From: Bradyrhizobium sp. CCBAU 53338
GTDB taxonomy: Bacteria; Pseudomonadota; Alphaproteobacteria; Rhizobiales; Xanthobacteraceae
NCBI RefSeq assembly: GCF_015291665.1
Contig: NZ_CP030048.1
Coordinates: 5,456,001 to 5,520,000 of the forward strand
Direction: 5' to 3'
Length of the DNA stretch: 64,000 bases
Position 1 is the first letter of the stretch, and each line of letters starts with the position of its first letter. The position numbers and the translations under genes are program-made. Below the pieces are notes generated by a model. The model was not told the origin of the DNA. It saw only the letters and a list, made by a program, of their open reading frames with translations, and searched no databases. This document shows positions 5,256 to 63,649 of the stretch, one piece after another.

Positions 5256-7190
5256 CTACCCCACGACGGCCCGCTTCGGCTCGACGATCTCGAACATTCG
5301 CGGGAATTCGTCCATCAGCCCCATCAGCTCGGCGAGCTTCATCGGATTGCCTGACAGCTTGACCTTGCCGGCGGCGACCGCCTCCGGAAAGCTCATGAGC
5401 TTCGCAATCACCTCATCCAGCGTTGCGCGTGCCAGCGTGAAGCTGGCATCGGCCTGCTCCGCCTGCACGCCTTCGGAATAAGTCAGGGCGCAGTTCTCGA
5501 GATTGAGCACGAAGGTCTCGCCGGTGTCCGAAAAACTCCAGTTCAGCACGATGTGCTTGCCCTCGGCTTTGGGCCCGTTGAGACGGATGCCGAGCACATC
5601 CCAGAGCTGCTCCGTGCGCAGCGCCGCCAGTGTCTCGCGCGGCATCGGTGCACGCGGCGGCGTCTTCGGCATGCCCTGGCGCAGCTCCTGGGCGCCGAAC
5701 AGATAGGCGTTGCGCCAGGTCGAGCTCTCGGCCGCATAGCCGAGCTGCTCCAGAGTATCGGCGAGCAGCGCGCGCGCAGCCGCATTGTCCGGCTCGGCGA
5801 AGACGAGATGGCCGAGCGCCTGCGCCACGAAGCGGAATTCGCCCTTGCCAAAATCCGCGCGTGCGCGGGCGATGATGGCATCGGCGCCGCCCATGTACTC
5901 GACATATTTCCTGCCCGACTGCACCGGCGGCAGCGGATCGAGATTGACCGGATTGGCGTCGTACCAACCGAGATATTTCTGGTAGATCGCCTTCACGTTA
6001 TGGCGGATGTGGCCGTAATAGCCGCGGCCGTGCCAGGCGCCCTCCAGGCTCTTGGGCAGCTGGATCGCCTCGGCGATCTCGGCCGCGTTCAGCCCATGGT
6101 TCATCAGGCGGATGGTCTGGTCGTGCGCGTATTTGTAGAGGTCGCGCTGCTCGCGGATCATGGTGTCGATGCGCTCGCGGCCCCACACCGGCCAGTGATG
6201 CTGGCCGCACATCGCCTCGGCCTTGCCGCCCCACAGATGCAGCGCCTCGTTGAGGTACTTCGACCAGGCCAGCGCATCGCGCACGTCGGCGCCGCGGAAC
6301 GGCAGCAGATTGTGGAAATTGTGCGTGCAGTTCTCCGCGAGGTTCAGGAGCTTGTAGCGCGGCAGGAAGAAATGCATCTCCGCCGGCGCCTCGCTGTTCG
6401 GCGCCATCTGGAATTCGAATTCGACGCCGTCGATGACGCGCGTGTCGCCTGTCGCCATGATCAGGTCGGTCGGCCGCAGTAATGCGACCGCGCCCGCGGC
6501 CATGGTCTTGCCGAGGCCGCAATCGACCTGTCCCCGCACGCCCTTGGCGAGGAACGGTCCGAACTGGTACTGCGCCCGGCGCAGCATCGCAGGTCCGGCG
6601 ATGATGTTCTCGGAGACGGCATGCTCCATGAACAGGTTCGGCGCGATGATCGGTACACGACCCGCCGCCAGCGCATCCTCCTCCAGCACGCCGCGCGCCC
6701 CGCCCCAGTGATCGGTGTGGGTGTGGGTGAAGATGACGGCCGCGACCGGCTTCAAGCCGCGATGCCTGAAATAGAGATCGAGAGCGGCGCGCGCGCCTTC
6801 GATCGAGGTCAGCGTGTCCACCACGATGACGCCGCTGTCGCCCTCGATCAGCGTCATGTTGGCGATGTCGAGCCCGCGCACCTGGTAAACGCCCGGCACG
6901 ACCTCGAACAGGCCATGCTGCATGTTGAGCCGCGACTGCCGCCACAGGCTGGGATTGACCGTCGGCGGCGCCTGCTCGGTGGACAGAAAGCCATAGGGCT
7001 CGAGGCTCCAGACCGTCCGCCCTTGCGGATTGGCAATCTTCGCGTGCTCGATCGTGCCGAGGAATCCGCGCGCAGCGTCGTCGAAATCCCGCGTGTCGGA
7101 AAACGGCAGCGCGTTCAGCATCGCCTGATGCTGCGCAATGACCGAAGGCGTTGCGTCCTTTGGCGTGTCGGCTGCTTCGATGCTGGTCAT
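5256..7190 (-). CDS. Alkyl sulfatase, SdsA1/BDS1-like metallo-beta-lactamase fold
   Basis: A 644-residue protein with the metallo-beta-lactamase zinc motif HTHTDHWGG at residues 156-164, followed by the long helical dimerisation region and a C-terminal SCP2-like domain (about 530-640). This is the three-domain layout of linear alkyl sulfatases, which release sulfate from dodecyl sulfate-like esters. The start at 7190 is supported by GGGAGGAG just upstream; an in-frame ATG 12 codons earlier has no such site. Pseudomonas SdsA1 is secreted, but no signal peptide is visible here, so a cytoplasmic enzyme is likely. It is transcribed alone, converging on the glycosyltransferase. Confidence 0.9.
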   Translation of the reverse strand: MTSIEAADTPKDATPSVIAQHQAMLNALPFSDTRDFDDAARGFLGTIEHAKIANPQGRTVWSLEPYGFLSTEQAPPTVNPSLWRQSRLNMQHGLFEVVPGVYQVRGLDIANMTLIEGDSGVIVVDTLTSIEGARAALDLYFRHRGLKPVAAVIFTHTHTDHWGGARGVLEEDALAAGRVPIIAPNLFMEHAVSENIIAGPAMLRRAQYQFGPFLAKGVRGQVDCGLGKTMAAGAVALLRPTDLIMATGDTRVIDGVEFEFQMAPNSEAPAEMHFFLPRYKLLNLAENCTHNFHNLLPFRGADVRDALAWSKYLNEALHLWGGKAEAMCGQHHWPVWGRERIDTMIREQRDLYKYAHDQTIRLMNHGLNAAEIAEAIQLPKSLEGAWHGRGYYGHIRHNVKAIYQKYLGWYDANPVNLDPLPPVQSGRKYVEYMGGADAIIARARADFGKGEFRFVAQALGHLVFAEPDNAAARALLADTLEQLGYAAESSTWRNAYLFGAQELRQGMPKTPPRAPMPRETLAALRTEQLWDVLGIRLNGPKAEGKHIVLNWSFSDTGETFVLNLENCALTYSEGVQAEQADASFTLARATLDEVIAKLMSFPEAVAAGKVKLSGNPMKLAELMGLMDEFPRMFEIVEPKRAVVG

Positions 7191-60082: not shown

Positions 60083-61063
60083 TCACTCGATTACCCGTGT
60101 TGCCCGTGCCAGCATGATTGGTGGGACTTGAAGGCCGAGCACCTGCGCCGTCTTGAGATTGAACACCAGATCGAATGCCGTCGGCTCCTGAACCGGAATG
60201 TTTTCGGGCTTTTCACCTTCGAGAATTTTCTTCACCAGCGGAGCCGCGTCTCGGGCGACTGTCGTCCAATTTGCTCCATAGGACATCAAAAGCCCGGCTT
60301 CAGGATAAGGATCAGCCTGACCGATCACCGGCAGCTTTGCTGCAACGGCTAGTTCCGCTATTCGCCGCAATACGAAGACGTGCCACCCACTGGCGCCGAG
60401 TATCGCCGCGCCAAACCGACTCGCCTTCGAAAACGCATCTTCAAGACCTTCCGGGCCGCTGCATTCGAACGACCCGAATGACAGTCCGAGCTGTTTTGCG
60501 GCTTTGCCCGTATCCTCGAGCTCTGGCTGGGTGGCAAAATGAAATGCAGGACTCGGGTCCCAGATCATTGCAACGCTCGACAGCGAGGGAATGGTATCCT
60601 TGAGCAGTTCCACGCGCTTCGCGGCAAGATACGCCGTGACATGCGCGATTCCCGTGACATTTCCTCCTGGACGATTGAGGCTCGACACAAGGCCGGATCC
60701 CACCGGATTTGGGTTGTATACAAAGACAATGGGAATGCTGCTCGTTGCCCGCTGAAGCGCCAGGGCCGGCGGAATGGTGATTCCCATCAAAACGTCGCAC
60801 TTCAACTCAACCAATTGCCTTGCCAACAAATCGAGGTTCTCCGAATTTTTGTCGAAGAACCGATCCTCGAAGATTATGCTGTCCTCGCCATATCCAATGG
60901 CCTTGAAGCCATCTCGCAGCGGCTTGAAGTATGGATGGGTCTCGGCATTTGCTCCCTGCCAGAGGACACCAACCCTGGGAATTTTTTTCGACTGCTGCGC
61001 TCGCACGACCGCGGGCCACGTCACGGCACCCCCGATCAGTCCGACGAATTCGCGCCGCTTCAT
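60083..61063 (-). CDS. Orphan ABC transporter substrate-binding protein (PF04392 type), paralogue 1
   Basis: A 326-residue periplasmic-binding protein with an N-terminal signal MKRREFVGLIGGAVTWPAVVRAQQ (Tat-like RRxF) and the family stretches PRVGVLWQGANAE, PIVFVYNPNPVGSGLVSSLNRPGGNVTG and PAFDLVFNLKTAQVLGL. Proteins of this family resemble TrpX but in Bradyrhizobium are often found as orphans without permease genes, many copies per genome. GGGAGGACGA precedes the ATG at 61063; the frame extends 15 codons further. It is transcribed toward the response regulator. Confidence 0.85.
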   Translation of the reverse strand: MKRREFVGLIGGAVTWPAVVRAQQSKKIPRVGVLWQGANAETHPYFKPLRDGFKAIGYGEDSIIFEDRFFDKNSENLDLLARQLVELKCDVLMGITIPPALALQRATSSIPIVFVYNPNPVGSGLVSSLNRPGGNVTGIAHVTAYLAAKRVELLKDTIPSLSSVAMIWDPSPAFHFATQPELEDTGKAAKQLGLSFGSFECSGPEGLEDAFSKASRFGAAILGASGWHVFVLRRIAELAVAAKLPVIGQADPYPEAGLLMSYGANWTTVARDAAPLVKKILEGEKPENIPVQEPTAFDLVFNLKTAQVLGLQVPPIMLARATRVIE

Positions 61064-61123
61064 TCGTCCTCCCGCCGTGTAACGCCCATGGCGATCATAT
61101 GACCACACACAACGGTCGCAGGG

Positions 61124-61431: not shown

Positions 61432-61800
61432 CTACGGGGGACGTCCGCTGACGTGACGTAAAAGCAGAACGATCACGCACATCGCTGCTACCGAAATGGC
61501 GAAAGATAGCGACACTACTGGAAATCCGCGCGACGAAGTTCCGCTTACAAACAGGTATTGCAGTGTGATTGCTATCAACTTCCAAACAAAGAACCAAAGT
61601 ATCCCGATGCCAGCAGCAGCGATCAACGTGAAGCCCGCGCCACCGGCCTTGTGAGCGGTTGGGTTTTCTTCGATCGGCTCTAATGTTTGCGCGCCGATCG
61701 AGCGTTCGGCAGTTATCGGTGCTCGCAGCAGCAAGAACGCCAATGCGGTGAAGAAAACTATAATCCCGACCGCAAGGGGGAATATGAGCCCCAAACGCAA
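61432..61800 (-). CDS. Small membrane protein, unrecognised
   Basis: A 122-residue protein with three strongly hydrophobic segments (about 3-26, 55-85 and 93-115) joined by polar loops. I recognise no family. The start is the TTG at 61800, which lies seven bases after AGGGAGG. An ATG overlapping that site would open a different frame that is not hydrophobic and looks non-coding. It stands alone between the decayed SgcJ-like fragment and repeat sequence. Confidence 0.6.
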   Translation of the reverse strand: MRLGLIFPLAVGIIVFFTALAFLLLRAPITAERSIGAQTLEPIEENPTAHKAGGAGFTLIAAAGIGILWFFVWKLIAITLQYLFVSGTSSRGFPVVSLSFAISVAAMCVIVLLLRHVSGRPP

Positions 61801-62169
61801 TTGCCATCCTCCCTCGCGATCAGATGCCCAGCCCGAACTTACTTTTGGTTGTGCATGTCCGGCGCGTCAATCAATCGCGCCACAGATGCTCAATTTTCCA
61901 TAAACACGGATTAGTCTGCTTCGGATCAAAAGCAGGCGCCGCTCGCGACCTCGACATGTCTGCCACGGGCCAAGCAGCCGACATATCCTCGGTCGTAGGA
62001 TGCGGCAGCGATCGGCCACACGCGGGCATCCCTCGATCACACCGTTGGTACGCCATAACGGCTTATAGCAGTTTTGCTGGACTGCCGCCGCAGACGCCGG
62101 GAGGATCGGCAGCGCGGCCCGCCTAGAAGCTGGCCCGGACCTACCACGGCCCGGGCCGCTGTGGCGCGA
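61801..62169. other. Gene-free stretch with genus-type repeat fragments
   Basis: No convincing gene is seen on either strand. The segment 61918-61990 resembles a short repeat common in rhizobial genomes (GCTTCGGATCAAAAGCAG followed by a MSAxGQ-like frame). Around 62130-62155 there is a GC-rich inverted repeat (GGCCCGG-AC-CTACCACG-GCCCGGGCC) that could terminate the small peptide gene upstream on the minus strand. Confidence 0.4.
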
Positions 62170-62349
62170 TCAGTGTAAGACAGTAGGCCAATCGACCCAG
62201 CTGTGGCTTCCGTCCGGGGTGCACGAAATTTCCATCCCGATGTTAGGTAGCCAGATTCTCATAATATCATTTGGCCGCCCGCCGGAAACTGAATCCAATT
62301 CGCTATCGCAAAGCGTATCGATTTCTCGCTCAGCAGCGTTCGTCTTCAT
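62170..62349 (-). CDS. 59-residue peptide with a double-glycine secretion leader
   Basis: The ORF starts at an ATG preceded by AGGAG at six to seven bases. The first 24 residues match the double-glycine (bacteriocin-type) leader consensus at every position: L13, E17, L18, V21, G23 and G24 (L-12, E-8, L-7, V-4, G-2, G-1). The predicted core is residues 25-59, starting R-P-N-D and containing one Cys and three Trp. Peptides of this kind are processed and exported by C39-peptidase ABC transporters; none is in the window. It could be a bacteriocin, a signalling peptide or a processed natural product. Too short for most gene finders; confidence rests on leader and ribosome-binding site. Confidence 0.6.
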   Translation of the reverse strand: MKTNAAEREIDTLCDSELDSVSGGRPNDIMRIWLPNIGMEISCTPDGSHSWVDWPTVLH

Positions 62350-62385
62350 TGCAATCTCCTGTTTTACGAAGGGATACTTCTCCTC

Positions 62386-62409
62386 GTAGTTGCGGGATAC
62401 GGCAACTAC
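62386..62409. promoter_or_regulatory. Perfect inverted repeat upstream of the small peptide gene
   Basis: GTAGTTGC (62386-62393) and GCAACTAC (62402-62409) are 8-bp perfect arms around an eight-base spacer, 37-60 bases before the peptide start. It may be a 5' leader hairpin or a dimeric operator. Confidence 0.5.
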
Positions 62410-62420
62410 TAGCGACGATC

Positions 62421-62436
62421 AGTGATTCAGATCACA
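62421..62436. promoter_or_regulatory. CRP/FNR-type candidate site upstream of the small peptide gene
   Basis: AGTGA-TTCAGA-TCACA fits the CRP-type spacing TGTGA-N6-TCACA with one change and contains GTGAT-N4-ATCAC, related to FNR/FixK boxes. It lies 72-87 bp before the peptide start on the minus strand, the usual activation distance. CRP/FNR regulators are plentiful in Bradyrhizobium; binding here is inferred. Confidence 0.5.
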
Positions 62437-62589
62437 CGCCTACTTGCATCGGTCGTTCCGTTTACAGGCGCGCCCCTAGAGGACGTCGATTAGCCCAAAT
62501 TGATGCGGCTGAAGCTGGCGCTTCAGAGCGGCAGATCACGGATGATCTTGCGCCAGTGACGCGGATCAAAAGAAAACCTTGCCTGCCCG

Positions 62590-62640
62590 AGCGCATGTCG
62601 GCGTTGGGTCAACAGCGCCGTTCTGCCGAAAGTAGCTTTG
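62590..62640. repeat. Rhizobial MSALGQ-type repeat fragment
   Basis: The segment beginning ATGTCGGCGTTGGGTCAA at 62596 resembles a short sequence repeated many times in rhizobial genomes, where it yields spurious small ORFs beginning MSALGQ. It lies immediately downstream of the second orphan binding protein. Identification is from memory of the repeat. Confidence 0.4.
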
Positions 62641-62644
62641 CGAG

Positions 62645-63649
62645 CTATTCAATCATCTCGTCAGCGAGCGCCATTAGCCTTGCTGGGATTTCGAGACCGA
62701 GCGCTTTCGCCGTCCTTGCGTTGATACTTAAAACCAACTTTGTGGGCGCTTGCACCGGCATTTCGGCTGGCTTCTCTCCTGTAAGGATACGATTGACGTA
62801 CCCCGCCACTTCTCTGAGGAATTCGTCCGTGTACCCCGCATCGGGACCGTAAGATATGAGCCCACCGGCGACGACAAAATCGCGCCAAGGGTAGATTGCC
62901 GGAAGGCGCTGCCTTGCTATCAATTGGACGAGTTCATTTCGACGCGCATACGTGACGGCATCCGGGAGAAAAACCAAACCGCGGCGTGACGTGTTTCCGA
63001 GGTCGACGATGGTGCGTTCGATGTCCGCGCTGTTTGCATGGGGAGTGACGATCCTCTTGATAGCGAAAGATGGTGCGGCACTTTCGATGGCCCGCAAGAA
63101 ACCCATGGAGTTGTTGCCCGGCTCAGGATTGAAGATGACGCCCAAGCCTTCAATCGAGGGCGCCAGCTCCTTCAAGGAAGACAACCACTTGCTGCCCATC
63201 GACGGTTCGAACGGCGTGGCGCCGGTGACACTGCCTCCTGGGTGCGACAGGCTTTCAACATATCCCATTCCTACTGGATCGCTGACGTTTACAAATACAA
63301 CCGGAATAGTCGTAGCTTCGTGATGCAAAGCCGCCATTGACGTATTCGTCACGGCAACAATGACAGACGGTCGCATCTCTATTAGTTCTTTGGCGCAAGC
63401 CCGCGTTGCATCGGTGTCTCCACCTGAAAAACGATACTGGATTACTGCTTTAGCGCCGGACGCCGGACTGCGCTGGTCTTCAAGCCGCTGGGGAAACGCA
63501 GCCGTGAACAATTTGGCGAAAGGGCTTTCGGCACTGTCGGCGAACAAGACGCCAATCAGGGGAGGACCCGCCGACTGGCCTGCCCGGATCGATAGCGGCC
63601 AGCCTGCCACGGAAACCGCAATCATCGTGATGAGATCGCGCCGTTTCAT
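62645..63649 (-). CDS. Orphan ABC transporter substrate-binding protein (PF04392 type), paralogue 2
   Basis: A 334-residue relative of the protein at 60083-61063. It has a signal (MKRRDLITMIAVSVAGWPLSIRAGQS), the family stretches PPLIGVLFADSAES, PVVFVNVSDPVGMGYVESLSHPGGSVTG and KLVLSINARTAKALGLEIP, and the same overall length. No permease or ATPase gene is nearby. The start has only a weak AGAG upstream. It follows the cyclase fragment at the right edge on the same strand; cyclases and these orphan binding proteins often occur together in the genus (from memory), suggesting a sensing role. Confidence 0.85.
   Translation of the reverse strand: MKRRDLITMIAVSVAGWPLSIRAGQSAGPPLIGVLFADSAESPFAKLFTAAFPQRLEDQRSPASGAKAVIQYRFSGGDTDATRACAKELIEMRPSVIVAVTNTSMAALHHEATTIPVVFVNVSDPVGMGYVESLSHPGGSVTGATPFEPSMGSKWLSSLKELAPSIEGLGVIFNPEPGNNSMGFLRAIESAAPSFAIKRIVTPHANSADIERTIVDLGNTSRRGLVFLPDAVTYARRNELVQLIARQRLPAIYPWRDFVVAGGLISYGPDAGYTDEFLREVAGYVNRILTGEKPAEMPVQAPTKLVLSINARTAKALGLEIPARLMALADEMIE

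Follow-up and report, generated by a model that had tools for sequence, protein, structure and literature searches.

A 59-residue double-glycine peptide precursor of Bradyrhizobium, its CRP/FNR-like promoter site and its candidate NHLM exporter

The window, i.e. the whole 64-kb stretch of DNA analysed here, corresponds to G000:C1:5456001-5520000 of a source genome (G000) of 8.28 Mb in two contigs. The features of interest are a 59-codon minus-strand open reading frame (ORF), its leader and core, and the elements upstream (Table 1). An earlier note, made from the letters alone, had described an ORF of this length with AGGAG before its ATG and a canonical double-glycine (GG) leader, and the translation, the spacing and the leader residues all agree with that description. 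The leader carries L-12, E-8, L-7, V-4 and a terminal GG, which we take to be consensus positions of double-glycine leaders. By this consensus, the hydrophobic residues at -12, -7 and -4 and the GG at -2/-1 of a short leader place the peptide among double-glycine precursors, as does the presence of a C39-peptidase exporter in the genome. A genus-wide leader profile, which itself includes the window leader, matched it with an E value of 1.2e-6.

Table 1 Features of the peptide locus in the window.
Feature	Position	Strand	Remarks
Block of about 585 bp common to the window and genome G063	62014-62598		88% identity; similarity beyond the block not found
59-codon precursor ORF	62170-62349	minus	Translation is MKTNAAEREIDTLCDSELDSVSGG followed by RPNDIMRIWLPNIGMEISCTPDGSHSWVDWPTVLH; intact in G063
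Double-glycine leader, 24 residues, MKTNAAEREIDTLCDSELDSVSGG	62278-62349	minus	70 of 72 bases the same in G063
35-residue core, RPNDIMRIWLPNIGMEISCTPDGSHSWVDWPTVLH, predicted three-stranded beta sheet	62173-62277	minus	Structure from a model; relatives in five other genomes
Ribosome-binding site AGGAG	62356-62360	minus	6 nt 5' of the ATG
GTGA-N6-TCAC, putative CRP/FNR-type activator site, GTGATTCAGATCAC	62422-62435	minus	Centre at -41.5
Predicted -10 element, TATCCC	62394-62399	minus	From an alignment of 60 promoters; A at -11 present, T at -7 absent
Predicted transcription start	62387	minus	Inferred from the -10 position; 38 nt before the ATG

The core, which contains one cysteine, was modelled with AlphaFold2 from six sequences as three short strands (pLDDT 84, 83 and 69 in successive ten-residue blocks from residue 31; 69.9 for the whole model, pTM 0.41). 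A fold search of the PDB with the model returned nothing at E <= 0.001 (best 0.29), and the best match to the peptide among the sequences of solved structures was a Nif11 protein aligned to the leader (E 0.14). The peptide has no match above the curated cut-offs of Pfam and NCBIfam, bacteriocin families included (LcnG-beta, 13.5 bits against a cut-off of 29.4). A plasmid search gave no match, a phage search gave a single match at E 0.6, and Rfam found nothing in 1 kb.

Relatives were sought in 264 other genomes of the genus. A full-length copy is present in G063 only, 81% identical over 59 residues and free of indels, and the earlier concern that the ORF might lack conservation in related strains was not borne out. 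Distant relatives occur in four further genomes: G016 and G264 (37% each), G154 (30%) and G114, the last detected by profile (E 4e-9). The pattern common to the related cores is P-(N-x)-G between two strands, the first of them hydrophobic. The core had been said to resemble nothing known; it does have these relatives in five genomes, while none was found in Pfam or NCBIfam. Among the genus matches 24 loci were translated; G247 (E 8.5e-4) and most weaker matches were set aside for want of a GG leader. In a family-level sample of 391 genomes the profile matched in 8, with one match outside the genus (G277, E 0.0027).

The peptide belongs to a larger class. A scanner for double-glycine leaders in ORFs with a ribosome-binding site returned, in the 64-kb window, this ORF and one GA-type match. 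As controls, 20-kb regions at round-number positions gave a match in 1 of 20, itself a plausible GG peptide, and reversed regions gave none in nine. A 19-position leader profile built from 26 leaders was searched in 265 genomes and found up to 32 matches in one genome. In the source genome eight matches were counted and seven listed; the GG pattern was found there at 80 places compared to 24 for a control pattern, and since the genome's own GG peptides were drawn from regions at about 60 of those 80 places, their list is incomplete. The 90 distinct GG-leader ORFs collected fall into 40 core clusters. Some of these sister cores are glycine-rich, some sister genes lie in adjacent pairs, and two sister peptides have weak matches, below cut-off, to Bacteriocin_IIc, ComC and Lactococcin-type leaders. 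In six other families of the class the core pN/pS ranged from 0.07 to 0.60 (at most 0.13 in four), which marks the class as protein-coding and, for the most part, subject to purifying selection. Leader length and consensus presumably match those of class II bacteriocins and pheromones (Pfam Bacteriocin_IIc, ComC, Lactococcin), from which the window peptide differs in having no match above cut-off and no Pfam or NCBIfam relative of its core. Double-glycine peptides of Gram-negative bacteria were reportedly studied by Dirix and colleagues in 2004.

The numbers of leader matches differ among genomes. G156, G157, G158 and G160 hold 29-32 each, a lineage-specific expansion of GG peptides, and every other searched genome has 18 or fewer. 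A two-gene GG-leader unit (MTERS.., MLNLDH..) occurs twice in the source genome (L082 and L085, C1 at about 4.77 and 5.10 Mb); the same pair adjoins the exporter in other genomes, G264 included.

The CRP/FNR-like site upstream of the ORF, which the earlier note had placed at promoter distance, proved to be the most general clue to this peptide class. GTGA-N6-TCAC was found within 250 nt upstream of 63 of the 90 distinct GG-leader ORFs, and in 61 of them the centre of the site lies 64-112 nt ahead of the start. By core cluster, it was present in 30 of 40 (28 at 64-112 nt; two at 129 and 220 nt). Control DNA contained nine such sites per 400 kb, equivalent to 0.0056 expected per ORF, and reversed upstream DNA contained the site in 1 of 89 cases. 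TTGA-N6-TCAA, the form compared for FNR/FixK-type sites, preceded 0 of 89 ORFs; GTGA..TCAC resembles CRP rather than FNR/FixK specificity. Of the strict form, GTGATN4ATCAC, the window has a single copy compared to 0.02 expected, whereas the looser TGTGAN6TCACA with one mismatch (1 against 1.09 expected) is not rarer than chance. All 14 palindrome bases are the same in G063. Ten clusters lack the site; the three GG ORFs found at the G039 NHLM locus are all among them. It is also missing from the GG ORF of G031, a genome without TIGR03794.

Sixty promoters were aligned on the site. A -10 element lies 36-41 bases past the first base of the site, with C or T at -12 in 58 promoters, A at -11 in 57 and T at -7 in 38; G is found at -33 in 59. 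The position of this element puts the centre of the site at -41.5, presumably class II activator geometry. An N6 palindrome at -41.5 that overlaps the -35 region, followed by a -10 element, is the layout of class II CRP/FNR promoters; for the window the start site is a prediction and the -10 a weak match. No sigma-70 consensus promoter was found. A 55-nt matrix trained on 58 promoters, with those of the window and G063 left out, ranked the window promoter first in the 64 kb (23.3 bits; next place 13.0). The part of the matrix downstream of the palindrome ranked it 1195 of 127892, and the palindrome thus carries most of the score. The other four GG units examined in the source genome also carry the site: it stands before the peptide genes at L054 and L074, and at L082 and L085 it is found ahead of the leading gene of the pair but not separately before the second. 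It was absent upstream of all 30 HlyD genes (450 nt before the matched part), and the exporter is therefore not visibly under the same control.

A whole-genome search located C39 domains above cut-off at four places in the source genome. None lies in the window, as the earlier note had stated, and its refuting condition, a genome with no C39 peptidase, does not apply. One of the loci, at C1:5543253-5549492, encodes a complete NHLM trio with all members above cut-off: TIGR03794 HlyD (306.9 bits), TIGR03796 C39-ABC (1026.8) and TIGR03797 second ABC (835.5). It is outside the window, with about 28 kb between its C39-ABC gene and the peptide. The earlier note had also suggested looking for LanM, and no match was found in the whole genome, which offers nothing in favour of a class II lanthipeptide.

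TIGR03794 was searched in the 265 genomes, 69 of which were positive (superseding an earlier subset of 117 genomes with 37 positive). The co-occurrence of leader and exporter looked for in NHLM substrates was observed among these related genomes: at a leader E value of 0.05 or lower, both were present in 62, the leader only in five, the exporter only in seven and neither in 191. Excluding 18 seed-supplying or seed-neighbouring genomes gave 45/4/7/191 in the same order. Other thresholds gave 66/15/3/181 (E <= 0.2), 59/4/10/192 (0.01) and 45/3/24/193 (0.001). Fisher's P values of 3.7e-46, and 4.5e-37 without the seed genomes, ignore kinship and are too strong because the genomes are related.

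For the class as a whole, linkage points the same way. Sister peptides are found near the NHLM exporter in eight of nine other genomes: the scan of 20-kb NHLM regions found 15 GG-leader ORFs with a ribosome-binding site in seven, compared to 1 of 20 control regions and none of nine reversed ones, and in the eighth a GG ORF missed by the scan was revealed by its GTGA-N6-TCAC site. The scan found no GG ORF in the source genome's own NHLM region, where the peptide is separated from the exporter as noted above, and in G063 the contig that holds the peptide lacks the exporter and extends about 100 kb on both sides of the gene, so that peptide and exporter are on different contigs and at least 100 kb apart. 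Proximity therefore means little and was dropped as evidence. Together with the pair that adjoins the exporter in G264 and is dispersed here, these cases indicate that substrates move while the exporter is shared.

Additional ORFs were observed at NHLM loci. In three genomes the HlyD gene is adjoined by a divergent ORF (L037:19682-20000, L174:4867-5403, L179:15044-15571) whose start resembles a signal peptide and which contains a GVLSxxD(L/F)K motif; neither of the two that were scanned matched a Pfam or NCBIfam family. Directly 3' of the NHLM ABC genes of G039, a 181-aa ORF (L174:13355-13900) scored 129.8 bits against TIGR03896 (bacteriocin-transport-associated, cyclic-nucleotide-type), under the cut-off of 161.05.

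The closest known systems are the NHLP/Nif11 precursors. Haft, Basu and Mitchell (2010; PMC2887384) used phylogenetic profiling to tie the NHLM trio to NHLP precursors and saw in its wider distribution an opportunity to discover more precursor families; neither Bradyrhizobium nor rhizobi occurs as a word in the main text of that paper. As described there, those systems share with the present one the TIGR03794/03796/03797 trio, a GG motif at the cleavage point, cores that vary, precursors frequently encoded apart from the exporter and an association made via phylogenetic profiling (PMC2887384). They differ in their long nitrile-hydratase- or Nif11-like leaders, compared to short ones here (24 residues in the window), and the source genome has neither an NHLP above cut-off nor LanM. 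The window peptide was rejected as an NHLP (TIGR03793), having no NCBIfam match and no long nitrile-hydratase-like leader. TIGR03793 matched two places only in the source genome, both under cut-off and both elsewhere than the peptide; the two leader matches (L172/L173, G000:C1:4096973-4097368) lie in one 431-aa open frame.

That the gene encodes an exported double-glycine peptide is well supported. The ORF is intact and conserved, and the leader, the co-occurrence of leader and exporter and the shared promoter architecture were all found by computation; on this basis we infer a regulator, transcription, cleavage, export and activity. In the account we consider likely, a CRP/FNR-type regulator turns on the gene, an unlinked member of a genus-wide set, and the NHLM C39 transporter then cleaves the precursor and exports the peptide. 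The regulator, of the CRP/FNR family, would bind GTGA-N6-TCAC at -41.5 and act on a class II promoter. Recognition of the 59-aa precursor would be via its leader, and the C39 peptidase of the NHLM-type exporter would cut after Gly24, releasing the 35-residue core outside the cell as a small beta-rich peptide. The core is probably unmodified, the simplest guess given no LanM in the genome and one cysteine in the core. Several results count against this account: the source NHLM region without a GG ORF and the separate contigs in G063, the ten core clusters without the site, the window -10 lacking T at -7 and the rank of the promoter without its palindrome, the co-occurrence exceptions in both directions with P values inflated by relatedness, the existence of a second HlyD/C39 exporter, and ORF changes that relaxed selection could partly give.

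The likeliest role of the core would be that of a bacteriocin-like weapon against related bacteria, a preference based on the glycine-rich sister cores and paired genes, which recall two-peptide bacteriocins. The main alternative, that the same exported peptide is a signal (a pheromone or plant-host signal), is quite possible though it is not the reading we would choose. Pheromones are found among GG-leader peptides, CRP/FNR-type regulation suggests a response to metabolism, and an immunity gene was not identified. The nearest membrane ORF, which encodes 122 aa on the minus strand and looks like a membrane protein, lies 370 bp downstream at 61432-61800. It matches nothing in Pfam, the loci compared contain no convincing homologue, and an immunity role for it is only a guess. 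The signal reading fits less well with the great diversity of the cores, as well as with the glycine content and pairing that recall two-peptide bacteriocins.

Cleavage and export by the second HlyD/C39 exporter (C1 at about 2.01 Mb) instead of the NHLM trio appears unlikely. The pair of genes does exist (ORFs of 424 and 731 aa), with a C39 domain at 121.6 bits, but its C39-ABC scores 499.8 against the TIGR03796 cut-off of 853.3, peptide-like ORFs upstream of it carry a different leader, and the leader class co-occurs with TIGR03794, the one exporter family tested for co-occurrence. Those upstream ORFs (L039:5110-5268 and 6212-6379) are two near-identical small ORFs with a GG-type leader beginning MFLFTKLSK.. 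or MFLLTKLSK...

It is also improbable that the peptide gene is decaying or no longer under selection, even though the comparison with G063 provides some grounds for it. All 16 ORF differences are nonsynonymous, one changing the start codon from ATG to GTG, they are distributed 9/6/1 over the codon positions, and nonsynonymous change runs at about the flank rate; in B. manausense (L035), on a contig with part of the shared block, a truncated copy lacks the leader. Against decay, the ORF contains no indels while the flanks have several, and identity is 70/72 in the leader (core 91/105, upstream 223/250, downstream 131/157), with the activator site unchanged. The absence of synonymous change was seen in 2-3.5% of stop-free trials of simulated neutral placement, and one or no third-position change in about 1%. 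If the rate of the upstream flank applied, no change at 38 synonymous sites would have a probability of 0.013. The excess of 16 nonsynonymous over no synonymous differences suggested positive selection on the core, which is not claimed because only two sequences were compared, too few to separate diversifying from relaxed selection, and nonsynonymous change is about as frequent as change in the flanks. The possibility that another frame holds the gene was rejected: four of the five other frames have stops in both copies, and the fifth, on the plus strand, is open in the window and has a stop in G063.

A chance ORF, as the short length and the lack of a Pfam or NCBIfam match above cut-off might suggest, was rejected as very improbable in view of the conserved copy, the relatives, the low scanner background and the promoter site shared by 63 of 90 ORFs.

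On the preferred account of regulated NHLM export, these scattered and very different peptide genes are united by a single export signal, in most cases by a common on-switch and very probably by the same exporter. A broader reading is, in our judgement, somewhat better than an even bet: a CRP/FNR-family regulator would command a dispersed, hypervariable arsenal of secreted peptides sharing one NHLM exporter, re-purposed from long NHLP/Nif11 to short GG leaders, with cores gained and lost as small promoter-leader-core cassettes. If so, the 585-bp block described here would be an example of such a cassette. As a rule, orphan double-glycine peptides have no exporter, regulator or expression condition assigned to them. 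In this case a single promoter signature and a single exporter family link many otherwise unrelated peptides of the genus, and the promoter site, having already revealed one peptide missed by the leader scan, offers a way to more. A single exporter deletion should clear the whole peptide set from the supernatant, and a testable question is raised as to which regulator and which growth condition switch the set on.

Two further elements that the earlier note had drawn into its reading won no support, while its exported double-glycine peptide is supported by the conserved ORF, the C39 exporters, the co-distribution and the shared promoter. At 62386-62409 the arms of the upstream inverted repeat, GTAGTTGC/GCAACTAC, pair perfectly in the window, but only six of the eight pairs hold in G063, and the repeat was rejected as an operator for want of conservation. 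The downstream GC-rich dyad is present but folds unremarkably (z -1.51; 14 of 200 shuffles fold equally well), no terminator-like site was found downstream, and it was rejected as a terminator. The peptide gene is flanked on the same strand by ABC_sub_bind (PF04392) genes at 60083-61108 and 62645-63649. A dispersed repeat of about 50 bp (61975-62025) lies beside the shared 585-bp block, on the downstream side of the peptide gene; it occurs once more in the source genome and has matches in at least 25 further genomes of the genus.
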